Below the pieces are notes generated by a model that did not search any database, was not told the DNA's origin, and saw only the letters and a program-made list of their open reading frames with translations. A program made the translations under genes and the position numbers. Shown here one piece after another: positions 19,931-35,841 of a stretch of DNA of 64,000 bases (the first letter of the stretch is position 1; the number at the start of each line of letters is the position of its first letter). Origin of the DNA: Ignavibacteria bacterium (GTDB lineage Bacteria; Bacteroidota; Ignavibacteria; Ch128b); assembly GCA_013177855.1 (NCBI GenBank), contig JABLYA010000001.1, positions 1,411,231 through 1,475,230 on the forward strand. Reading direction: 5' to 3'.

Positions 19931-20164
19931 GGAATTATTAGTCAAGTTTTAACGACAAAACAAAAAAATACATTTAATTTTACCAAATAAACGATTAAGC
20001 ATTGTGACCTTTGAGAATAATTCATTGATTTTGAATTATTTGAATAGAATCCGCCTTTAGCCTTGTTGAATATTTAAATCGGAAAATTTAAATTGTAAAT
20101 GAAAAATAAAGGGCGAAAATGGAAAAAATTCAACACTTCAACTCTATATTAAATGAGGCCAATT

Positions 20165-20905
20165 ATGAGAATAAGTTTTTTATTTCAATTAAAAGAGAGC
20201 AACCTGCCAAAAGATTATCGGAGAGGCTTTGCCTCTTTGATTAAGCACGCAATTTCAATAGCAGATCCTCAACTTTATAATATCTACTATAAAGGCAATT
20301 ATAAGATAAAACCTTTCACATTTAGCGTTTATTTCCCCCATAGCCCGAAATTTCAAGATGATAAATTTATAGTGGGAGATGAAGCAATATTAAATATATC
20401 TACAAATGATTATCGTTTTGCATCAAAAATCTACAATGGAATGCTTTCAATTCTAAATTCACCTTATCCGATTTTTGAAAATTCTGTATCCTTAAAGACC
20501 ATCACTTTTCATCCATTAAAAAGAATTAAAAAAGATGAAATTACCTTTAGAACAATGGATGCAATTTTGATAACAAATAAGAATTGTCATATCGATGTAA
20601 ATGGTAATCAATACGATCTTTATCTCACTCCAGATGACGAAGGATTTGATGAAGGATTACGATTTTTAATCAAGGAAATAGTGAAAAAATTTTTGAATTA
20701 TGAAAGGGATTTTTTCTTTGATTACGAATTAGTTCAAGACACGGTTAGAGCAATTCCAATTTGGCATTATAATCAATGGAACACAGGTATCAAAGGTAAA
20801 ATCAAAATAAAAAGTCATCCCGAAATTCTACAATTAATTTACGATGTCGGGATTGGTGCAAGAAGAAGTCAGGGTTTCGGGATGCTGGAGGTGACAAATG
20901 AATGA
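20165..20905 (+). CDS. cas6: CRISPR-associated endoribonuclease Cas6
   Basis: A 246-residue RAMP protein that cuts the pre-crRNA within each repeat, leaving an 8-nt handle (expected ATTGAAAC). The N terminus starts Met-Arg-Ile-Ser-Phe-Leu-Phe, a ferredoxin-like strand. The C terminus carries the glycine-rich loop Gly-Ile-Gly-Ala-Arg-Arg-Ser-Gln-Gly-Phe-Gly that defines Cas6. The ATG at 20165 is chosen because GAGG lies 6 bases upstream; an in-frame ATG four codons earlier has no such site. It is the first gene of the cas operon and overlaps cas8b by 8 bases. Confidence 0.93.
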   Translation: MRISFLFQLKESNLPKDYRRGFASLIKHAISIADPQLYNIYYKGNYKIKPFTFSVYFPHSPKFQDDKFIVGDEAILNISTNDYRFASKIYNGMLSILNSPYPIFENSVSLKTITFHPLKRIKKDEITFRTMDAILITNKNCHIDVNGNQYDLYLTPDDEGFDEGLRFLIKEIVKKFLNYERDFFFDYELVQDTVRAIPIWHYNQWNTGIKGKIKIKSHPEILQLIYDVGIGARRSQGFGMLEVTNE

Positions 20906-21980
20906 TAAAATAATTTTATATCCTTCAAACTGGCTTTATAATGCGGGTGTGGTTGGACTAATTCAGACACAACCAGATTTTTTTGAGTTTGAAGACAATT
21001 TAGTAATAATGGATAGACACATTTTCCAAAATATCGATATTGAAAATTACTTTGATCAAGCAAAAATTATAAATCTTAAAGGTAATAACAAGTTTTATCC
21101 AAATTTCATTGATACGGATGGTAACCAGAAAGAATTTTTTATAAAATTTGTTGAATCATTTTTTGACCATCTTAATCAATCAGGCAATTGTCATATTTGT
21201 GGGAACGCATATAATTTAGATAATACAGCATTACAAAAACTTATCAGTAAAGATGCAGGGCGACAGTTTATTGAGAAAATCAAAAAGTTTGAAATGGTTT
21301 ACAATCGTTTGCTTGGTCCTTCGCTTAATAAATTTCCAAATGGGGCATGGAATTTAGACCAAAGCCTTGATATATGTAACCTTTGTACTTTTTTGCTTAT
21401 TCATCATCATCTTTCGTATACAAAACTTTCTGATAGGTCGGAAATTTTTATAAATGCACCTTCATTCAAATTAATGTATGAATTAAATCGATTGATAAGG
21501 AGTTTATATGGACAATCTAATGCAAGTAAAACATCAGTTCGAGAATTATTAGCCATTTCCATAATTGAATATTCGAGAAGACTATCCACTCTTTTGAGCG
21601 AATGGTTAGCCTTAAATATTGAAGTCGTAATAAAAACTGATAATAAAATAGATTTCTTTTCATTACCTGCCGAAGTCTCAAACTTAATTTCAGATAGAGA
21701 TATTTCTGCTCTTTTAGCAGCTATAGGTGAAAGCAAGATTCTTAATTTAGTATTAGATCAAAAATATTCTGATTTGATTGATTATGGTTATAAATTTTTA
21801 AGAATTGGATTAAAAGATAAAAATGAAATTAACGAAGCTGACAGAGGGTTTATATATAATACAATAAAGATGGAACGGAACAGAAAAAACCTTTCTGCAT
21901 TAGCTGACCAACTCTTTAAACTCTATTCAATAATTGAAGAAAAATTAAAGGAGAATCAAAAATGGAATTACAGGAATTAA
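20898..21980 (+). CDS. cas8b: Type I-B Cascade large subunit Cas8b (Cst1-like, short form)
   Basis: A 360-residue protein whose start Tyr-Pro-Ser-Asn-Trp-Leu-Tyr-Asn-Ala-Gly and two CXXC pairs (Cys98/Cys101 and Cys160/Cys163) identify it as the CXXC-CXXC protein Cst1, the large subunit of Tneap-like type I-B Cascade, expected to read the PAM and support Cas3 recruitment. I recall Cst1/Cas8b1 as generally longer, around 500 residues; here the C-terminal part seems absent and the next small gene would make up the difference. The cysteines probably bind zinc. Its stop overlaps the next start by 19 bases, suggesting coupled translation. Confidence 0.85.
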   Translation: MNDKIILYPSNWLYNAGVVGLIQTQPDFFEFEDNLVIMDRHIFQNIDIENYFDQAKIINLKGNNKFYPNFIDTDGNQKEFFIKFVESFFDHLNQSGNCHICGNAYNLDNTALQKLISKDAGRQFIEKIKKFEMVYNRLLGPSLNKFPNGAWNLDQSLDICNLCTFLLIHHHLSYTKLSDRSEIFINAPSFKLMYELNRLIRSLYGQSNASKTSVRELLAISIIEYSRRLSTLLSEWLALNIEVVIKTDNKIDFFSLPAEVSNLISDRDISALLAAIGESKILNLVLDQKYSDLIDYGYKFLRIGLKDKNEINEADRGFIYNTIKMERNRKNLSALADQLFKLYSIIEEKLKENQKWNYRN

Positions 21981-22438
21981 AAAATCAAATTCAGTTAGGA
22001 AATTTTTCTCTTGCTGCTTTTAAGAGTTTTTATGAAGAACTAAATAACACTTACGATGAATTTCAGTCTCTCCTTGAAGAAGCTTATGAAAATACTAAAG
22101 ATAAAGAATATTATAATTTGCTTAGATATGTAAAAGGTCAAAAATCATCAGAGTTGATAGAAAGATTAAAAAAATATGGGTATAAACTTCGGAAAAATTC
22201 CAACATAGCAGAGGCGTTCAAAAATATGGGCTATCGTTTACTTGAACAGGCTCGAGCTGGTAGAAAAGAAGATGTGTTTTATGGTATTTTGAGAATATTC
22301 ATTTCAGCTAAAGAAAATTTCCCAATTGTATTAACCGAAGTATTTAAACCTTATTACTCAGAAGAAATGTTCAAAATTTTCATCTTCTCGTTCTTAGCCG
22401 GAGTAATAGGGCAGGAAGAAGAACAAACAATACAATAA
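21962..22438 (+). CDS. Small helical Cascade protein, candidate separate Cas11 small subunit
   Basis: A 158-residue protein with no recognised family. Its sequence is almost wholly compatible with alpha helix: charged heptad-like stretches rich in Leu, Glu, Lys and Tyr, few prolines, and a hydrophobic last helix. It starts 19 bases inside the end of cas8b, with AAAGGAG 10 bases upstream, and is followed by cas7 after 12 bases. In many type I-B and I-C/I-D systems the helical small subunit Cas11 is made from an internal start in the large-subunit gene; the combined length of cas8b and this protein (about 518) equals a usual Cas8. A detached Cas11 is therefore inferred from position, size and fold type only. 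Confidence 0.7.
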   Translation: MELQELKNQIQLGNFSLAAFKSFYEELNNTYDEFQSLLEEAYENTKDKEYYNLLRYVKGQKSSELIERLKKYGYKLRKNSNIAEAFKNMGYRLLEQARAGRKEDVFYGILRIFISAKENFPIVLTEVFKPYYSEEMFKIFIFSFLAGVIGQEEEQTIQ

Positions 22439-23503
<1,065 letters not shown>

Positions 23504-23524
23504 AAGCTTATAGAGGACCGAACT

Positions 23525-24337
23525 ATGAAAATATTAAGAATTAAAATTTACCAGCCTCAGGCGCATTATCGAATACCATTTACAGTTCAAAGGAGGCACA
23601 CTTACCCAATACCTCCTTATTCAACTGTCATTGGTCTTTTAATTAACCTTCTCGGATTGAAAGATCAGTCGGATAGTCTCTTTGTTGATGGAATTAAAAA
23701 TCTTAAAATTTCAATAGCGGGTTGGTTTGAAACAAAAACAATTGAAAAAATATGGTTTCGTAATCTCTCAAAAGAAAGTCACAAAGATCGATTTGGGTTG
23801 GTAAATAATAGAATTTTTGGCGGGCACATAGAACATTTTGGTGGTCAATCTCCAATGACTATCGATATCCTTAACGATGTTCATCTCATAATTTACCTTT
23901 TTCATAAGGATGAAATTATTTTAGAAACAATTAAAGAGAAAATTCTAAATCCTATTGATAGACTTGAAGTTTTACATCTCGGCAGAGCCGAGGATTGGAT
24001 TGTCTTTGAAGATTTACCACAATTAATTGATGTATCTGAACTCGCATACAAAAGAATTGATACAAATTATGAAATTTTCTTCTGGATTCCCGAAAGAATT
24101 TTTCAAATCAATGATGAATTGATTGATTATAACCAATTTCAAGGATTGATTTATAATCTTCCTGTTTTCTTTGAAATTGAAAATTATCAAACCACTTTTA
24201 ATAAGAATGGAAAAAGAAAATTTTCTTACATAAGGGCTAAGTTAAATGATGGAAAAATTTATAAGACAAATATCTTGTTAGATTTGAACTCAGGCTTTCC
24301 AAAACCAATGCCAATCTTTTTGGGGGATTTACAATGA
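23525..24337 (+). CDS. cas5: Cascade protein Cas5
   Basis: A 270-residue RAMP protein that caps the 5' handle of the crRNA in Cascade. The N-terminal strand and loop, with Gln-Pro-Gln-Ala-His-Tyr-Arg, then Arg-Arg-His-Thr-Tyr-Pro-Ile-Pro-Pro-Tyr-Ser-Thr-Val-Ile-Gly-Leu, is the hallmark of Cas5 of the I-B/Tneap type. GAGG lies about 8 bases before the ATG. It overlaps the cas3 start by 4 bases. Confidence 0.92.
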   Translation: MKILRIKIYQPQAHYRIPFTVQRRHTYPIPPYSTVIGLLINLLGLKDQSDSLFVDGIKNLKISIAGWFETKTIEKIWFRNLSKESHKDRFGLVNNRIFGGHIEHFGGQSPMTIDILNDVHLIIYLFHKDEIILETIKEKILNPIDRLEVLHLGRAEDWIVFEDLPQLIDVSELAYKRIDTNYEIFFWIPERIFQINDELIDYNQFQGLIYNLPVFFEIENYQTTFNKNGKRKFSYIRAKLNDGKIYKTNILLDLNSGFPKPMPIFLGDLQ

Positions 24338-26991
24338 ACCATCATTTCCCAATCTGGGCAAAAAGTATAAAAAGAGCTGCTGATAATAATGAAGCTAGAA
24401 TTATTACGCTCGGAGAACACACAGAACACCTCTTAAGCAAATTTGAAAATTTAAGAGACTTTATTCCTCAAGAACTTCATGAACCTATAAGAATTGCAAT
24501 TATTCTCCATGATATTGGAAAAGTCTTGCCATCCTTTCAAAGAAGAAAACTTGGGAATAGAGATTATAAACCATTTGATGCATTGGTCGATATTGATCAT
24601 TCAATTCTTTCTACTCTACTTGTGAATAAAGAAAAATTAAGAGAACTGATACAAAATGAAGATTATGAAAAATTTATTTTATCAGCTGTTGCATTTCATC
24701 ATTGGAGAGATAAATTTGAGGATTTAATCAGGTATGGCAGTGATCAATTTCAAAAACTTAAAAGCAAGTCTGATGATTTCAAAGCTCAATTGATTCACAA
24801 TTTGCAATCTGAAATGCATAAAATTGAAAATATTGATTATACATTAATTGCATTTGATGAATATATGCTTGAGGGTTTAGCCAATAAATTACCTTTTGTT
24901 AATTATGTAATTCCACCTTATCAGTTGTATTTCCTGCCGCAAAGAATTGATATTTCTGAGGATAAAAAGAAAGACTGGATTTTGATTGCAGGCAACTTAA
25001 TGCGATGTGACCATTTCGCATCATATTGCGAAGAAGATAATATGGATTATCCAATAGAAATCAGCAACATTGAATATGATCAAATAAAAGCGTTAATACA
25101 AAATAAGTTTAATGGTCAAAAACTCTGGCAACTAAAATACATTGATCATTGTATTGATAAAAACACAATATTAATTGCTCCCACGGGTATGGGTAAAACT
25201 GAATTCGCATTTCTTTGGTCCAATGGCAAAAAGTTTTTCTATACTCTTCCGTTCAGAGCTGCAGTTGAACAAATTTTTGAGAGAGCAAAGAATATTTTTA
25301 ATTCAGATAAAACCGAGAGAGTAGGGATTCTTCATTCAGATGCTGATGTTTATCTTATTGAACAGGAAAATGAAGAAAGCAGCATTAAATTATACGATAA
25401 TGCAAGGCAATTAGCTTTTGCTGTTAATATTTCAACGGGTGATCAGTTTTTTCCCTATTCTCTACGTCCACCTGGTTTTGAAAAAATTTATTCAACATTT
25501 GCTTATTCAAATCTTGTAATAGATGAAGTTCAAGCCTATGATCCTAAAGCATCAGCGATTGTTGTAAAATATGTAGAAGATATAATTAAAATGGGGGGTA
25601 ATGTTCTTTTAATGACAGCTACATTCCCGGAGTTCATTAAAGTTGAATTGAAAAAAAGAGTGGAAGAATTAACCCTCAACGGTTTTGAAATTCTTGATCT
25701 CTTTGATATCGAAGAATATAAATTCAAAAAATTGATTAAGCATAAAATACAATTGATCAAAATTGAAAATTCCAGAACTAACGATAATAAAGTAGATTTT
25801 TCGTTTCCTGATGAGCTCATCAATCAAATAATTGAACAGGGGCGAAACAAAAGAGTTCTTGTAATTTGTAATACAATTAAACAGGCTCAGGATGTTTATT
25901 ATAAGTTAAAACAAAAAATAAATAATGAAATTGATTTGTACCTTTTGCATTCTAGATTCACTTTTGATGACAGGAAAAAGAAACAAGACATATTGACTCG
26001 GGAATTTTCCAATCCAAAAACAGAAAACGAAGATAAAGGTAAAATTCTTGTAGCTACTCAAGTAATTGAAGCCGCTCTTGATATTGACGCAGATGTACTT
26101 TACACCGAACTTGCACCGATGGATGTTCTTGTTCAAAGAATGGGCAGAGTATTGCGAAGGTATCGAGAAAATTATACTTATGAAGGTCCGCCAAATGTGA
26201 ATATTATTCTCTTTAAAGAAAAATATGAATCGGGCAATTCTAAGGTCTATAATTCTGAGTTGCTTGAACTGACTTTAATTCTTGTTTTTATCAAACTCTT
26301 TCAAAATGTTGATGCTGATAATCTTAATGACATAATTCCAGTAGCTAAAAGTTATTTCGAGTACAAAAACAGTAGGCTAAAGACAAAAGATAGTTTTAAG
26401 AATGATCTTGATAACATTTCGACATTTAATTCAAAATCAAAAGGGAAGAAAGGAAAAAGAAATCAAAATTTTAGTACTCTAAATTTCTCATTATCTGAAT
26501 ACGACAAATATCAACTTACTAATGCTCTCTATTCTTTAATAGATGATCAGAGCAATTATAAACAGGAGTTTTATAAAACTTTGAACACCCTTGATGCTGG
26601 ATATATGGCTGAAAGTCGGCAAGAAGCTCAGAAAATTTTCAGGCCAATGGTATCTACTTCAGTAATAAGCAAAATAAAATTGGATCAACTTAAAGATGAT
26701 ATATTAAAATTTTTCAACAATTATGGAAATTCTCAAAGAATATTTACACTCTTTAAAGAATACATTATTTCAAGATATGTGGTAAATGTAATCGGAATGC
26801 GCGAGAGAAATCCCTTATTGAAACTTGAAAGATGGATCAGTAATAATTTTACTTCAGAGGAAATTGATGAAATCAATTTGAACCGCTTAAAAAGGTGGAC
26901 AAGAGATATCTACCTGACCGATGCAAATTATTCTGAAGAGATTGGATTAGAAAAAGAAATAGAAACTAAAATTGAAACACAATTCTTATAA
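24334..26991 (+). CDS. cas3: CRISPR-associated nuclease-helicase Cas3 (HD plus DExD/H)
   Basis: An 885-residue protein recruited by Cascade to unwind and degrade target DNA. The HD nuclease lies at the N terminus, with His29 in Glu-His-Thr-Glu-His and His59-Asp60 in Leu-His-Asp-Ile-Gly-Lys. The helicase part has Walker A Ala-Pro-Thr-Gly-Met-Gly-Lys-Thr at about residues 282-289, a DEVQ box (Val-Ile-Asp-Glu-Val-Gln), Met-Thr-Ala-Thr-Phe, and the motif VI region Gln-Arg-Met-Gly-Arg-Val-Leu-Arg-Arg. All catalytic motifs seem intact. It overlaps cas5 by 4 bases and cas4 by one. Confidence 0.96.
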   Translation: MNHHFPIWAKSIKRAADNNEARIITLGEHTEHLLSKFENLRDFIPQELHEPIRIAIILHDIGKVLPSFQRRKLGNRDYKPFDALVDIDHSILSTLLVNKEKLRELIQNEDYEKFILSAVAFHHWRDKFEDLIRYGSDQFQKLKSKSDDFKAQLIHNLQSEMHKIENIDYTLIAFDEYMLEGLANKLPFVNYVIPPYQLYFLPQRIDISEDKKKDWILIAGNLMRCDHFASYCEEDNMDYPIEISNIEYDQIKALIQNKFNGQKLWQLKYIDHCIDKNTILIAPTGMGKTEFAFLWSNGKKFFYTLPFRAAVEQIFERAKNIFNSDKTERVGILHSDADVYLIEQENEESSIKLYDNARQLAFAVNISTGDQFFPYSLRPPGFEKIYSTFAYSNLVIDEVQAYDPKASAIVVKYVEDIIKMGGNVLLMTATFPEFIKVELKKRVEELTLNGFEILDLFDIEEYKFKKLIKHKIQLIKIENSRTNDNKVDFSFPDELINQIIEQGRNKRVLVICNTIKQAQDVYYKLKQKINNEIDLYLLHSRFTFDDRKKKQDILTREFSNPKTENEDKGKILVATQVIEAALDIDADVLYTELAPMDVLVQRMGRVLRRYRENYTYEGPPNVNIILFKEKYESGNSKVYNSELLELTLILVFIKLFQNVDADNLNDIIPVAKSYFEYKNSRLKTKDSFKNDLDNISTFNSKSKGKKGKRNQNFSTLNFSLSEYDKYQLTNALYSLIDDQSNYKQEFYKTLNTLDAGYMAESRQEAQKIFRPMVSTSVISKIKLDQLKDDILKFFNNYGNSQRIFTLFKEYIISRYVVNVIGMRERNPLLKLERWISNNFTSEEIDEINLNRLKRWTRDIYLTDANYSEEIGLEKEIETKIETQFL

Positions 26992-27491
26992 TGAAAATTA
27001 CAGGCACACATATCAATTATTATTTTCATTGTAAAAGACATCTATGGTTTTTTGCTCACCATATATTGATGGAACACACAAGCGAACTTGTTGCTATTGG
27101 AAAATTCATTTCAGAATCAACATACGAAAGAAAACAACACGAACTCCATTTTGTAGAAGAAGATTTTGAATTTGTATTAGATTTCTTTGATAAAAACACC
27201 AACACAATCCACGAAATCAAAAAAACAAACAAAATGGAAGAGCTTCACATCTGGCAATTAAAGTTTTATATCTACAGATTAAAAGAATTGGGCTTTCATA
27301 ATGTAAAAGGCATTATTGACTATCCAAAATTAAAAAGGTTAATTAAAGTGGAACTAACCGAAAAAGATGAAGAAAAATTAAATGAAGTTATAAAAGAAAT
27401 TCATCTGTTGGTTAATCAGAAAAAACCACCTAAAGTTATAAGAAAATCTTATTGTCGTAAATGTTCTTACTTTGAACTATGTTATGTTTAA
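26991..27491 (+). CDS. cas4: CRISPR-associated exonuclease Cas4
   Basis: A 166-residue PD-(D/E)XK nuclease that trims prespacers to the correct length and PAM before integration. The [4Fe-4S] cysteines are Cys14 and Cys155-X2-Cys158-X5-Cys164. The nuclease core shows Ile-Gly-Lys-Phe-Ile-Ser-Glu, the Phe-Val-Leu-Asp strand and Ile-His-Glu-Ile-Lys-Lys, so the catalytic Asp, Glu and Lys are present. It starts on the last base of the cas3 stop (TAATG) and precedes cas1 by 12 bases. The presence of cas4 predicts strict PAM selection during acquisition. Confidence 0.94.
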   Translation: MKITGTHINYYFHCKRHLWFFAHHILMEHTSELVAIGKFISESTYERKQHELHFVEEDFEFVLDFFDKNTNTIHEIKKTNKMEELHIWQLKFYIYRLKELGFHNVKGIIDYPKLKRLIKVELTEKDEEKLNEVIKEIHLLVNQKKPPKVIRKSYCRKCSYFELCYV

Positions 27492-27503
27492 TTTGGGATT
27501 TTT

Positions 27504-28616
27504 ATGAAAAAGAATTTTTACATATTCACAAACGGTATTTTAAAAAGAAAAGACAACACAATTTGCTTTGAACCATTTATAAATCAGGAAACTCAGAAGC
27601 CCTCAAAACTCCTTGAGCAAACTGATCTGACTAATATCCCTGAAGAAGAATTTTTAATTGATAACGATGAAATTGAAGATGAAAAAGAAAATCAAAACGC
27701 AAAAACTCGTAAGTTCATTCCTGTCGAATCGATTGACAGTATATATTGCTTTGGTGAGCATCGTTTTAATACTAAATTCCTAAATTTCCTTAGTCAAAGC
27801 CAGATCCCGCTTCATATTTTCAATTATTACGGATTTTACACAGGGACATTTTATCCGAGAGAGACACAGGTTTCAGGTAAATTGCTCATTGCACAGGTGC
27901 AACATTTTTTAGATGAAGAGAAAAGACTTACAATTGCTAAAGAGTTTATCAGAGGCTCACTTTTTAATATGATTAAAAACTTGCAATACTATAACAACCG
28001 TCAAAAAGATCTCTCTTATTTTATTGATTATCTTACCAATGCATTAAAAAAAGTTGATGAAGTAAAATCAGTTGAAGAATTGATGGGCATTGAAGGAAGC
28101 GCAAGAAAAAATTATTACGAAAGCTGGCATTTAATAATTAATCAACCGATAGACTTCCAGAAAAGAGAAAAGCAGCCACCATCAAATCCAGTTAATGCTT
28201 TAATTTCATTTGGTAATAGCCTTCTTTACACAACGGTACTCGGTGAGATCTACAGGAATCAGTTAAATCCAACTATCAGTTATTTGCATACTCCTGGAGA
28301 AAGAAGATTTTCTCTTTCATTAGACATTGCCGAAGTATTTAAACCTTTAATTGTTGATAGAATAATATTTGCACTTTTGAACAAAAACATAATAAAACAG
28401 GACGATTTCGAATTTCATTTGAATAGTTGTTTATTAAACGAAAACGGAAGAAAAATATTCGTTAAAGAATACGACGAAAAACTTTCAACGACAATTAAAC
28501 ATAGAAAACTTAATAGATCAATATCCTATCAAACCTTAATAAGATACGAATGTTATAAATTGATTAAACACTTACTGGATGCCGAAGAATATCAATCATT
28601 TAAAATATGGTGGTAA
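27504..28616 (+). CDS. cas1: CRISPR adaptation integrase Cas1, with an acidic N-terminal insertion
   Basis: A 370-residue integrase that inserts new spacers next to the leader with Cas2. The metal ligands are visible: Glu197 in Gly-Ile-Glu-Gly-Ser-Ala-Arg, His262 in Leu-His-Thr-Pro-Gly-Glu, and Asp274/Glu277 in Ser-Leu-Asp-Ile-Ala-Glu-Val-Phe. The protein is about 40 residues longer than usual. The extra length lies at about residues 27-67, between the first two beta strands, and is rich in Glu, Asp, Asn and Gln. Both flanks align well with ordinary Cas1, so it looks like an in-frame loop insertion rather than an error. Confidence 0.96.
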   Translation: MKKNFYIFTNGILKRKDNTICFEPFINQETQKPSKLLEQTDLTNIPEEEFLIDNDEIEDEKENQNAKTRKFIPVESIDSIYCFGEHRFNTKFLNFLSQSQIPLHIFNYYGFYTGTFYPRETQVSGKLLIAQVQHFLDEEKRLTIAKEFIRGSLFNMIKNLQYYNNRQKDLSYFIDYLTNALKKVDEVKSVEELMGIEGSARKNYYESWHLIINQPIDFQKREKQPPSNPVNALISFGNSLLYTTVLGEIYRNQLNPTISYLHTPGERRFSLSLDIAEVFKPLIVDRIIFALLNKNIIKQDDFEFHLNSCLLNENGRKIFVKEYDEKLSTTIKHRKLNRSISYQTLIRYECYKLIKHLLDAEEYQSFKIWW

Positions 28617-28619
28617 AAA

Positions 28620-28883
28620 ATGTATGTCATATTGGTTTATGATGCAGCTCCCAAAAGAGGGCAAAAGGTTCTAAAATTTTTAAGAAAAAAATTAAACTGG
28701 GTGCAAAACTCAGTATTTGAGGGTGATATAACAGAAGCTTCTTTTATGGAGTTAAAAAAAGAAATTGAACAGTTGATTGATAAAAAATATGACTCAATCA
28801 TTTATTATGTGTTTGATTCTAAAAATTACTTTGAGAGGGGGATAATAGGTTTAGAGAAAAGTAATCTAGATACAATAATATGA
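28620..28883 (+). CDS. cas2: CRISPR adaptation protein Cas2
   Basis: An 87-residue ferredoxin-fold protein forming the Cas1-Cas2 integration complex. It starts Met-Tyr-Val-Ile-Leu-Val-Tyr-Asp8, with the conserved Asp after the first strand, followed by Lys-Phe-Leu-Arg-Lys-Lys-Leu, Val-Gln-Asn-Ser-Val-Phe-Glu-Gly and a C-terminal Ile-Ile-Tyr-Tyr-Val-Phe strand. It begins 3 bases after the cas1 stop and is the last cas gene, directly upstream of the leader. Confidence 0.95.
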   Translation: MYVILVYDAAPKRGQKVLKFLRKKLNWVQNSVFEGDITEASFMELKKEIEQLIDKKYDSIIYYVFDSKNYFERGIIGLEKSNLDTII

Positions 28884-28980: not shown

Positions 28981-31900
28981 GTTTTAATCGAACCATTGTG
29001 GAATTGAAACTTTGCAATATAATATTACAGATTAAACTTGTCAAGTGTTTTAATCGAACCATTGTGGAATTGAAACACTAAATAACTTAAATAAGTTAGA
29101 ATGTAGTTATTTGGTTTTAATCGAACCATTGTGGAATTGAAACTGAATTCTTTTAAAGTCATTTGCAACTTTTTTACTGTTTTAATCGAACCATTGTGGA
29201 ATTGAAACGTTAAACAATTTTATGTGATAGCCAGCTCTCATCCGGTTTTAATCGAACCATTGTGGAATTGAAACTTGTAATCCATGCCGTAACTCTCACA
29301 TAATCTTATGTGTTTTAATCGAACCATTGTGGAATTGAAACAATGAAACATCTTTTCCAATTGCTTTATAAATATCAGTTTTAATCGAACCATTGTGGAA
29401 TTGAAACTTCCAGCATCCAGAACTTGCATACTACTTACCGAGTTTTAATCGAACCATTGTGGAATTGAAACGATGGCCTCTACTACAACCCCTGAAGAAA
29501 TCAACAAGTTTTAATCGAACCATTGTGGAATTGAAACAAGAAATTTCCAACTTATATTCCTATTAAGCCAATTGGTTTTAATCGAACCATTGTGGAATTG
29601 AAACATTATGCACCGATGTAAGCACAGTACGCCCTGATTAGGTTTTAATCGAACCATTGTGGAATTGAAACTTAAGTTGTTCTTTGTCATCCGACCAGTA
29701 GAGGCTTGGTTTTAATCGAACCATTGTGGAATTGAAACTTAAGAGCCGTCCCGCAATATCTGCATCGATGAATCGTTTTAATCGAACCATTGTGGAATTG
29801 AAACGGGCACATGTGCCTGTGTTTTGTCCAGTCGTGGTTAGTTTTAATCGAACCATTGTGGAATTGAAACAGGAATTTTAGCCAGCCGTGAAATAACTGG
29901 CGGTGGTTTTAATCGAACCATTGTGGAATTGAAACGAGACCGAACTAATCGGATGCCGAATTAATGTTGTAGTTTTAATCGAACCATTGTGGAATTGAAA
30001 CAATTTATGTTTGCAATGTGGTTAAATTAAGGTTGGGTTTTAATCGAACCATTGTGGAATTGAAACTCTTTTGGGACATTTTTAACCTCCGTTTTTGTTT
30101 TTGTTTTAATCGAACCATTGTGGAATTGAAACTAACCCACAACAAACCCATTTTCAGTCACGCTGATAAGTTTTAATCGAACCATTGTGGAATTGAAACT
30201 ATATTTTAGACGATGGAATTAAAAATTGTTCTACGTTTTAATCGAACCATTGTGGAATTGAAACGAATGCGAATAGTTAAGAGTGTGAAGTGTGAAAGAG
30301 GTTTTAATCGAACCATTGTGGAATTGAAACGTAATGATACATAAAATTCGGCCCGTATCCTGAGCTGTTTTAATCGAACCATTGTGGAATTGAAACTAAT
30401 TTGCAGAAATATTCGCAACAATTTCAATGCGGGTTTTAATCGAACCATTGTGGAATTGAAACACGGTTACTACTTTGTTCCAATCTTCTTCAGGGATGGT
30501 TTTAATCGAACCATTGTGGAATTGAAACGAATAAGGGGCATCAGTTTCAAATATGTTTGAAACTGTTTTAATCGAACCATTGTGGAATTGAAACTTTGCC
30601 CCCAACTTAACTTAATTTGCCAGGTGCGGGGGTTTTAATCGAACCATTGTGGAATTGAAACATATACCACCTGTAATGATAGCGAAAATCCCGCCCGGTT
30701 TTAATCGAACCATTGTGGAATTGAAACAGTTTTGCTATGTTTTACAAAATTTGTACTACTTACGTTTTAATCGAACCATTGTGGAATTGAAACTCTTCAG
30801 GGATGACTTTAGCCAGGGCCATCCCTATTGTTTTAATCGAACCATTGTGGAATTGAAACTCTTTTGGGACATTTTTAACCTCCGTTTTTGTTTTTGGTTT
30901 TAATCGAACCATTGTGGAATTGAAACATAGTTTTTAAAAATTTTTTTGTAAGGAAATTCTGAGTTTTAATCGAACCATTGTGGAATTGAAACATCTTCTT
31001 ATCACCATTCCTTAGAATAATTTTAAGTGTTTTAATCGAACCATTGTGGAATTGAAACAATAGATTAATTAATAAATCTATACATTGATTATATGTTTTA
31101 ATCGAACCATTGTGGAATTGAAACGCACAACCAGCGGGGTGCTGATAGGCCGTATAAGAAGTTTTAATCGAACCATTGTGGAATTGAAACATTTTTACAC
31201 TCAACGAAGAAATAGTCATCTTCAGTTTTAATCGAACCATTGTGGAATTGAAACAAAGGAGGATGACTTCTACCTTTTAATACTTTTAACGTTTTAATCG
31301 AACCATTGTGGAATTGAAACAATAGATTAATTAATAAATCCACTTCCTGATTGTATGTTTTAATCGAACCATTGTGGAATTGAAACGCCTGGCACGAAAG
31401 GGATTTATGGAATGAATGGCGTTTTAATCGAACCATTGTGGAATTGAAACAAAAAAACCAACTAAAGGAGACAAAAATGGAAGAAGGTTTTAATCGAACC
31501 ATTGTGGAATTGAAACGCCAGCTGTCGCTCAATAGCTGCCAACTGTTTTTTATGTTTTAATCGAACCATTGTGGAATTGAAACATTGACTGGCGGGGCCG
31601 TTTTTTAATGTTATTGCCCACGTTTTAATCGAACCATTGTGGAATTGAAACTTGGCCAGTCACGGTTTTTTATCTGGCGCTATATTGTTTTAATCGAACC
31701 ATTGTGGAATTGAAACCGTTATTATCAATTTATTTTATTTTTGCCGCCATCAGTTTTAATCGAACCATTGTGGAATTGAAACGATTTTAATCGATGCCGA
31801 AAAATTTATTCAAGAGAAGTTTTAATCGAACCATTGTGGAATTGAAACGTCATCTTTGTGATGACTTCCCCAACAGTCAGGTTAGTTTTAATCGAACCAT

Positions 31901-34900
31901 TGTGGAATTGAAACGGCTATCGACGATAGCCTTAGAAGCCTTATAAAGAGTTTTAATCGAACCATTGTGGAATTGAAACTGCAACCCAAGTTCCTCAAGA
32001 AATCATTTAATGGTTGTTTTAATCGAACCATTGTGGAATTGAAACTAATCAAGACCTTGACTACTTCAAAAAAGTAGTTGAGTTTTAATCGAACCATTGT
32101 GGAATTGAAACTTAGTCACTGCTATTAACCTATCTCTATCAAACTCGTTTTAATCGAACCATTGTGGAATTGAAACGACTTCTATATCGAAAATCAGAGC
32201 AATTTGAATTGCGTTTTAATCGAACCATTGTGGAATTGAAACGGAAGTTCTTTAAGTTTGCTTAACAATTCTAAATTCGTTTTAATCGAACCATTGTGGA
32301 ATTGAAACTCATAAGTCCCGCAAGGAACATAAATGAAAGCATTAGTTTTAATCGAACCATTGTGGAATTGAAACGGCAGCACAGGAGTTTTTAAAATGGA
32401 CCAAAGTAAGTTTTAATCGAACCATTGTGGAATTGAAACCTAATAACATTGCCATTATGATCGTAAACAGCAAGACGTTTTAATCGAACCATTGTGGAAT
32501 TGAAACTAATTCTTCAAAATAAAAGCAGACTCGTCCATTAAAGTTTTAATCGAACCATTGTGGAATTGAAACGAAACTGTCCATCAACATATTTACTAAT
32601 CGCTTGGGCGTTTTAATCGAACCATTGTGGAATTGAAACTTATTTGGAGGCTTTATTGAAGCAGGTTCGTTATTGGTTTTAATCGAACCATTGTGGAATT
32701 GAAACAATTTTTAATACACATTTAAAAAATATTCTTATTGAAGTTTTAATCGAACCATTGTGGAATTGAAACAGAAAAAATTTTATATTTTTTATAAACA
32801 AAGTTTTAAGTTTTAATCGAACCATTGTGGAATTGAAACACTTCCGCTCTTGCTCCTCGAACATACGGCTCGAAAGTTTTAATCGAACCATTGTGGAATT
32901 GAAACGGGGCATTTATTATTATACTTAAAACAAAAAGAAATGTTTTAATCGAACCATTGTGGAATTGAAACAATTTTTTGTTATACTGGTCCCAAAAATC
33001 GGAAGGTGTTTTAATCGAACCATTGTGGAATTGAAACGGATTTATCTGTAGAGCCATTTTGTATCTCCTTCTTTGTTTTAATCGAACCATTGTGGAATTG
33101 AAACGCGAAACTTGCCAGTTCTTTAATGGTTGGCCTCCAAGTTTTAATCGAACCATTGTGGAATTGAAACAATACATAACTATTAATTTTAGGTCTGTAA
33201 ACAGGTTTTAATCGAACCATTGTGGAATTGAAACAGCAACTTACCGCCATTCTCTCGGTCTACAACTATGGTTTTAATCGAACCATTGTGGAATTGAAAC
33301 AGCTCAAACAAGATTTTTAAGTTATACAGGGCAAACGTTTTAATCGAACCATTGTGGAATTGGAACGTTAACTGATCAAAGATGTCTACAAACTCCGATA
33401 GAGTTTTAATCGAACCATTGTGGAATTGAAACTTATTTGCAGGTTCCCCAAAACCAATAGTTAAAATGTGTTTTAATCGAACCATTGTGGAATTGAAACC
33501 TAAGCCAATCAGCTACTTTACCACTCAAAAAATCAGTTTTAATCGAACCATTGTGGAATTGAAACTTTCTAATTCCTAATAAATTTGCGTAAGATTGATA
33601 AGTTTTAATCGAACCATTGTGGAATTGAAACAGGCTATTAATCAACCAGCTGATATATACCACCTAAGTTTTAATCGAACCATTGTGGAATTGAAACGTA
33701 TTAATAGACCAATCATAACCAGCAACAAACCCAAGTTTTAATCGAACCATTGTGGAATTGAAACTAAGATTTTAAAGCCTTGTTTCTTCTACTACAACAG
33801 TTTTAATCGAACCATTGTGGAATTGAAACAGATTGTTAATCATAATGTAATATTTCATTCTAAACCTGTTTTAATCGAACCATTGTGGAATTGAAACTTG
33901 TCTTAGGCTCTTGTGGAGTAACTATTGTAGAGTTTTAATCGAACCATTGTGGAATTGAAACTGAATTTCGTTGTATCTCTTGGAAATTATTGTCTTCGTT
34001 TTAATCGAACCATTGTGGAATTGAAACACATAATCATTAACCCCATCAAACTGATACCCACCAACGTTTTAATCGAACCATTGTGGAATTGAAACTATTA
34101 CTTTCCACTGCATTAACTTAACTTTTAACTTAGTTTTAATCGAACCATTGTGGAATTGAAACGTTAAATCCGTATCGTAATCTGTTATCTTCTCAATTGT
34201 TTTAATCGAACCATTGTGGAATTGAAACTTAATATCGAACGGACACTCCATAACTGCAACTTTCGTTTTAATCGAACCATTGTGGAATTGAAACGAGATA
34301 TACGCAACTCTAAATCGCAAGTCCCATAATGTTTTAATCGAACCATTGTGGAATTGAAACTTATTATCGACCCATTTTCTGAAATTTCGTTCAATCGTTT
34401 TAATCGAACCATTGTGGAATTGAAACCAAGTCCCATAATTCCACTGGGACACTCTCTTCTACGTTTTAATCGAACCATTGTGGAATTGAAACTCAGAACT
34501 CCTTTCTATTTCCATATAGGCAAGCCGGGTTTTAATCGAACCATTGTGGAATTGAAACATTGTCCTGTTATCCGTGTTACTTGTTACACTTGGAAGTTTT
34601 AATCGAACCATTGTGGAATTGAAACGGGGACTTGGTTGCTAAATATAGGCAACCTTAACTTGTTTTAATCGAACCATTGTGGAATTGAAACGATAATCCC
34701 GAGTTTCTCTTTGTATACATCTAACGGGTTTTAATCGAACCATTGTGGAATTGAAACATTATTGAATTAACAACCTTTTCAGTATTAACAGAGTTTTAAT
34801 CGAACCATTGTGGAATTGAAACCCTTATTGTTTAATTCAATAACTAAATTTCTAATACAAGTTTTAATCGAACCATTGTGGAATTGAAACACCTTTACAT

Positions 34901-35019
34901 TTTTGAGATTATTTCTAATAACAATAGTTTTAATCGAACCATTGTGGAATTGAAACAAGCAAAACTCACACAAGAAGCCTTTGTCTGTTTGAGTTTTAAT
35001 CGAACCATTGTGGAATTGA
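28981..35019 (+). CRISPR. CRISPR array: 91 intact 30-nt repeats plus one truncated, about 91 spacers of 34-39 nt
   Basis: The 30-nt repeat begins GTTTTAATCGAACC and ends ATTGTGGAATTGAAAC. Starting at 28981 I count 91 complete copies by eye, spaced 64-69 bases apart, and a 92nd at 34993 that keeps only the first 27 bases (ends GGAATTGA). The copies look identical except the one at 33337, which ends GGAATTGGAAC. The repeat end fits type I-B handles, and the array follows a complete type I-B cas operon. Direction is plus, with the newest spacers expected near 28981. Spacers 17 and 29 are the same target, 32 and 36 are variants, and pairs 23/28 and 81/83 overlap end to start. Confidence 0.98.
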
Positions 35020-35620
35020 CCCTTCGGCAAGCTCAGGGTAAGGTGTTGAAAAGATAAATGTTGAGCCTGTCGAAGCATAATCGAACCTATACGTATTCGA
35101 AACATTTCAATGACGAAGCTGGAAGCTTCGATTACAATGGTTTTTATTGAACAAATGTGGAATTGACCCTTCAGCAAGCTCAGGGCAGGTGTTGAAAGGA
35201 TAAATGCTGAGCCTGTCGAAGCATAATTGAACCTATACGTATTCGAAACAATTCAATGACGAAGCTGGAAGCTTCGATTACAATGGTTTTTATTGAACAA
35301 ATGTGGAATTGACCCTTCGGCAAGCTCAGGGTAAGGTGTTGAAAGGATGAATGCTGAGCCTGTCGAAGCATAATCGAACCATTGTGGAATTGAAACTTCG
35401 GCAAGCTCAGGGTAAGGTGTTGAAAGGATGAATGCTAAGCCTGTCGAAGCTTAATCGAACCTATGTTTATTCGAAACATTTCAGTGACGAAGCTGGAAGC
35501 TTCGATTACAATGGTTTTTATAGACAAAGCTTAAATTGACTCTTCGATAAGCTCAGGGCGACATTCCCTTCAACAAACTCAGGATCACATTACTCTCGAA
35601 AGACTTAGGGTGACAACCTT
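35020..35620. repeat. Decayed CRISPR trailer: 146-bp units of degenerate CRISPR repeats and REP-like palindromes
   Basis: Directly after the truncated last repeat come palindromic elements of about 56 bases (CCCTTCGGCAAGCTCAGGG ... GAGCCTGTCGAAGC) at about 35020, 35167, 35313 and 35394, plus worn copies from 35540. Between them lie CRISPR-like remnants: ATAATCGAACC...ATTCGAAAC at 35076-35102 and equivalents, GTTTTTATTGAACAAATG...GAATTGA at about 35140 and 35286, and a nearly intact repeat lacking its first bases at 35371-35396. A second palindrome (CGAAGCTGGAAGCTTCG) occupies the 36-base gap between remnants. The unit period is 146-147 bases. Confidence 0.85.
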
Positions 35621-35841
35621 ATTATAATTGATCCAATCTATAAATCTATATTTGAAAAAACTTGTTAGTTTATTGTCAAAACTTAAAGCGTCGCTCGATT
35701 TTGGAATTACTTATCTTGTTCTAACATTCCATTTATTTTAATGCTTGCCTTTTCAAGGTAATCATTGGTTATTCCTATCTTTTTGGACCAATTTTTTATG
35801 AACATAGTCGCTGTAATCCTCCAAAATTTTCTTCATTATGT

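Follow-up and report, generated by a model that had tools for sequence, protein, structure and literature searches.

Palindromic repeats interleaved with decayed CRISPR repeats form chimeric trailers at the ends of three arrays in an Ignavibacteria genome

The window (the whole 64,000-nucleotide stretch of Ignavibacteria bacterium DNA analysed here) carries a CRISPR array preceded on its leader side by a cas operon whose gene content points to a type I-B-like system (Table 1). The closest Cas1 we found, 74% identical, comes from an uncultured Ignavibacteria bacterium, and a 158-aa ORF at 21962-22438, between the CXXC protein and Cas7, had no Pfam match. The array repeat, GTTTTAATCGAACCATTGTGGAATTGAAAC, gave 92 matches between 28981 and 35022, separated by spacers of 34-38 bases with a mode of 36 (54 of 91), and, of array and trailer, only this interval combines near-identical regular repeats, unique spacers and adjacent cas genes.

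Table 1 Features of the cas operon, the regular array and its trailer in the window
Feature	Position	Strand	Remarks
cas operon, leader side of array	20153..28616	+	Pfam matches; in order Cas6, CXXC-type protein, unmatched ORF, Cas7/DevR, Cas5, Cas3, Cas4, Cas1
Cas2-like ORF	28620..28883		after cas operon; read by eye
Regular CRISPR array	28981..34992	+	91 intact repeats, 91 unique spacers
92nd repeat	34993..35019	+	reduced to positions 1-27; joined directly to first REP segment
REP-like hairpin segment, copy 1	35020..35076	+	57 bases; core belongs to dispersed family
Degenerate CRISPR repeat	35077..35103	+	lacks first three bases
36-base palindrome module	35104..35139	-	around CGAAGCTGGAAGCTTCG
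Degenerate CRISPR repeat	35140..35166	+	lacks last three bases
Second chimeric unit	35167..35312	+	REP, degenerate repeat, palindrome module, degenerate repeat; 95% identity to first unit
Shortened unit	35313..35396	+	REP (35313-35369) and nearly intact CRISPR repeat, positions 4-30 (35370-35396)
Last chimeric unit	35397..35540	+	repeats most decayed of all; 90% identity to first unit
Ordinary cluster of REP half-elements	35540..35622	+	outer border of trailer

Past the regular array lies a trailer (34993-35560) of tandem chimeric units of 147, 146, 81 and 146 bases, in which a truncated CRISPR repeat, a REP-like hairpin, a degenerate repeat and a 36-base palindrome module follow one another, with REP segments starting at 35020, 35167, 35313 and 35394. 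A first-pass annotation of the sequence had reported these unit starts, the 146/147/81-base spacing and both palindromes, all of which we recovered at the same positions, and the repeat it saw reappear at 35371-35396 is exact over repeat positions 5 to 30. The trailer units are not a CRISPR array in the strict sense, their repeats being truncated or degenerate and the intervals between them repeated and either 36 or 51-57 bases long. The annotation had also placed the palindromes in spacer positions; this holds for the gap at 35104-35139, which is of spacer length given the modal spacer of the array, but not for the REP intervals, which at 54-57 bases cut three bases into the repeats on either side.

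We searched the genome for each palindrome alone. Allowing no more than one mismatch, we found the REP core, CTTCGNCANGCTCAG, 49 times in the genome, spread over about 20 loci, and once in the control; the genomic matches form dispersed intergenic clusters, one of them at the outer border of the window trailer, which is the distribution of a palindromic core at many intergenic sites that characterizes a REP family. GTAG or CGTC terminal tags have been described for REP and REPIN elements (PMC3733652). Beside the REP clusters of the genome we found no RAYT gene, a Y1 tyrosine transposase with REPs on its flanks; the genome holds four Y1-transposase matches, two with internal stops, all distant from the arrays and from the clusters. 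The second palindrome, CGAAGCTTCCAGCTTCG, does not show the dispersed intergenic distribution of a REP family: with three mismatches allowed, 10 of its 10 genome copies lie within three chimeric trailers, that of the window and two others.

Those two belong to a set of three further arrays in the same genome (L061, L062 and L063), whose repeat, GTTGTAATCGAACCATAGTGGAATTGAGAC, shares 27 of 30 bases with the window repeat. The trailers of L061 (around C1:2174635-2175320) and L062 (around C1:2559140-2559905) lie on the same contig as the window, far off, so that chimeric trailers end three of the four arrays found in the genome; the fourth, L063, has a plain end, and its neighbouring genes look type III, Cmr-like, by eye. 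The trailer, first described as a feature of the window array, is therefore real but not peculiar to that array. In L061 and L062 a CRISPR repeat is split into the halves GTTGTAATCGAACCATA and GTGGAATTGAGAC by an insert of about 64 bases carrying TCCCGACAAGTCGGGA and a hairpin, TTCCGCT...AGCGGAA, and since the palindromes are bordered by exact halves of a repeat, these trailers directly show insertion inside one. Their tandem units are 92, 110 or about 280 bases long. The 110-base one looks like a 92-base unit carrying the second palindrome as an addition at the TCGAA of its repeat, and its hairpin arms are decayed. In both sister trailers the palindromes interrupt the repeats themselves, at the TCGAA motif and within the loop of the short dyad that the repeat contains. 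TCGAA flanks one palindromic insert on both sides, yet belongs to the palindrome itself. Within the regular part of L062 (L062:2139-2237) a repeat-spacer unit is doubled, with spacer GCAGCTTAGTAATAATATTTGGCTTAGATGGTTGC present twice and the repeat in between two bases short at its end, which points to recombination or slippage. In L061 the final regular spacer (L061:2835-2874), 40 bases long, contains a palindrome, CCAGGTACTACCTGG, with perfect arms (CCAGGTA-C-TACCTGG) that occurs once in the genome.

The three trailers are related to one another in sequence. The inter-repeat linker aligns the window units with the L061 and L062 units (z = 4.3-7.8, 0 of 500 shuffles as good), and a linker-repeat junction, CGAAGC followed by ATAATCGAACCAT, is common to all three, while the repeat pieces in each trailer are similar to the repeat of its own array. 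On the minus strand, the 36-base module consists of TTGTAATCGAA, with which the repeat of the other arrays starts, followed by GCTTCCAGCTTCG; the former matches that repeat start at 11 of 11 bases (0 of 2000 shuffles as good), and the window's own repeat differs from it by one base. On the same strand the module aligns to the 110-base unit (z = 12-14), and this homology, together with the TTGTAATCGAA match, identifies the apparent spacer as an inverted module that, judged by its sequence, is akin to the other array type or descends from it. All five genome copies of TCCCGACNNGTCGGGA (at most one mismatch) lie in the L061 and L062 trailers; in two genomes of one sister genus this element is dispersed, and sister genera carry TCCCGACAAGTCGGGA as a dispersed palindrome. 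Had the unit recurred at many sites away from CRISPR arrays, its likeness to the CRISPR repeat could be dismissed, as the annotation had pointed out; short pieces apart, no composite unit was found elsewhere in the genome.

We then considered how unusual such array ends are. Within 600 bases past the last regular repeat, half-repeat matches numbered 7 in the window (0.06 expected) and 5 each in the L061 and L062 trailers, compared with none at L063 and 0 or 1 at each of 18 other arrays near related Cas1 genes. Other measures distinguished the trailers poorly: by fold z-scores strong local hairpins are common downstream of comparison arrays too, the count of perfect-arm hairpins gave poor separation, and a truncated final repeat was seen in most comparison arrays. 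We reject an assembly artefact, judging from the assembled sequence alone, because three separate loci agree and the contig spans 2.65 Mb. A search of 391 genomes of the class for the composite unit gave nothing further comparable, and the window trailer matched no plasmid.

The annotation had called the association undescribed, and a literature search with most subscription papers outside its reach likewise turned up no description of such trailers. Known CRISPR trailers resemble them in being leader-distal and decayed, with a truncated final repeat, but in this one genome three arrays carry tandem units in which palindromes alternate with the decayed repeats. Dispersed intergenic imperfect palindromes, clustered with short linkers, are likewise typical of REP, BIME and REPIN elements, whereas here they are joined to CRISPR repeats and have no adjacent RAYT-type gene that we could find. 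Bertels and Rainey (2011) speculated that CRISPRs may derive from REPIN-like elements (PMC3116915). Insertions of IS elements or MITEs likewise interrupt arrays with foreign or palindromic DNA. We know of none that was amplified in tandem or shared among arrays. Such insertions are reported to be rare, an early archaeal survey having found one IS element (ISH4) and one 132-bp MITE (PMC4390879).

Our favoured explanation, which we consider probable, is that palindromes intruded into the decayed leader-distal end of a type I-B-like array, that the resulting unit was amplified, and that modules were exchanged between arrays. We infer an order in which REP hairpins of the dispersed family would have come to lie between repeats, other palindromes would have entered the repeats of the sister trailers at the TCGAA motif and the dyad loop, and the chimeric unit would have been amplified in tandem by unequal recombination or slippage between repeat copies; recombination is also the presumed means of exchange with the two other arrays, the similar CRISPR repeats serving as homology. 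The old end of an array would tolerate such intrusion since spacer acquisition takes place at the leader and selection on the oldest repeats is weak. We base this reading on the split repeats, the tandem units of all three trailers, the linker homology and common junction, the resemblance of trailer repeat pieces to their own array, the confinement of the second palindrome beside the dispersal of the REP core, and the duplication in L062. Of the two origins offered by the annotation, insertion of palindromes among old repeats followed by amplification is the one that the exact repeat halves support. Against it count the second palindrome, which is not dispersed as a mobile element would be expected to be, and the inserts themselves, for which we identified neither a target-site duplication nor a mobilising enzyme, the four Y1 matches being distant.

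The annotation's other option, that the adaptation machinery captured REP-like or palindromic DNA as spacers, finds some encouragement in the module of exactly modal spacer length and in the palindrome within the last L061 spacer, but the latter is single-copy, the REP intervals are too long and intrude on both repeats, and the 36-base module is a reversed repeat start plus palindrome, homologous to a module that elsewhere sits inside a repeat. As no trailer insert combines spacer size with full repeats on both sides, and none of the regular window spacers shares an 11-base word with the trailer, we regard capture as very improbable. An unlikely account, though a serious rival for the palindromes confined to trailers, is that these were made in place by template switching at the repeat dyads, inverted repeat pieces becoming hairpins that were then amplified, with only the REP part recruited from the dispersed family. 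The second palindrome is found only in trailers and starts with the repeat fragment TTGTAATCGAA, and the hairpin arm GCGGAACTCGA adjoining GTGGAATTGAGA resembles, by eye, a degenerate repeat end; the dispersal of TCCCGACAAGTCGGGA in sister genera and of the REP part in its own genome nevertheless implies that at least part of the palindromes came from outside.

The shared trailers could also stem from an old duplication of whole arrays. It is unlikely that the palindromes form a family homing specifically to CRISPR repeats at old array ends, through the TCGAA motif and dyad loop, and passing from array to array as parasitic or structural units specific to trailers. The trailer might instead be functional, its hairpins stopping transcription, protecting the pre-crRNA end or shielding the downstream gene. 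The 57-base REP segment does fold as a single long imperfect hairpin (z = -3.6, 1 of 200 shuffles equally good), giving each unit one strong hairpin, and such trailers end three of the four arrays found. The complete 147-base unit, however, does not fold unusually (z = -1.5), arms are decayed in the 110-base units, L063 lacks such a trailer, other arrays too are commonly followed by strong local folds, and no terminator-like site was found, so a function appears rather improbable and under the intrusion and exchange that we favour the trailer would have none.

CRISPR array trailers are usually ignored. In this genome they appear able to accumulate and amplify palindromes and to share them between arrays, which would make them a readable record of inter-array recombination, and they offer a concrete place where REP-type repeats meet CRISPR-type ones; how the two are related has so far only been guessed at. 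They also advise caution, in that a palindrome in a spacer-size gap is not necessarily a spacer.

Elsewhere, matches in G272, G308, G002:C9, G240 and viral contigs were set aside as unrelated palindromes or A+T-rich stretches. G240 (L166:1440-1530) has two CGAAGCTTCCAGCTTCG-type palindromes close together, apparently within a coding frame, and three viral contigs (L174-L176) have single copies similar to this type. In both same-genus genomes CRISPR arrays run to contig ends. Next after the window trailer comes a nitroreductase gene, and at the corresponding position G002 and G004 have different sequence. In the same-genus genome G001 the contig with its homologue starts, upstream of that gene (L158:1-640), in a dense cluster of another palindromic family, GTCATTGCGAG...GAAGCAATCC, which holds no CRISPR remnant and breaks the contig.
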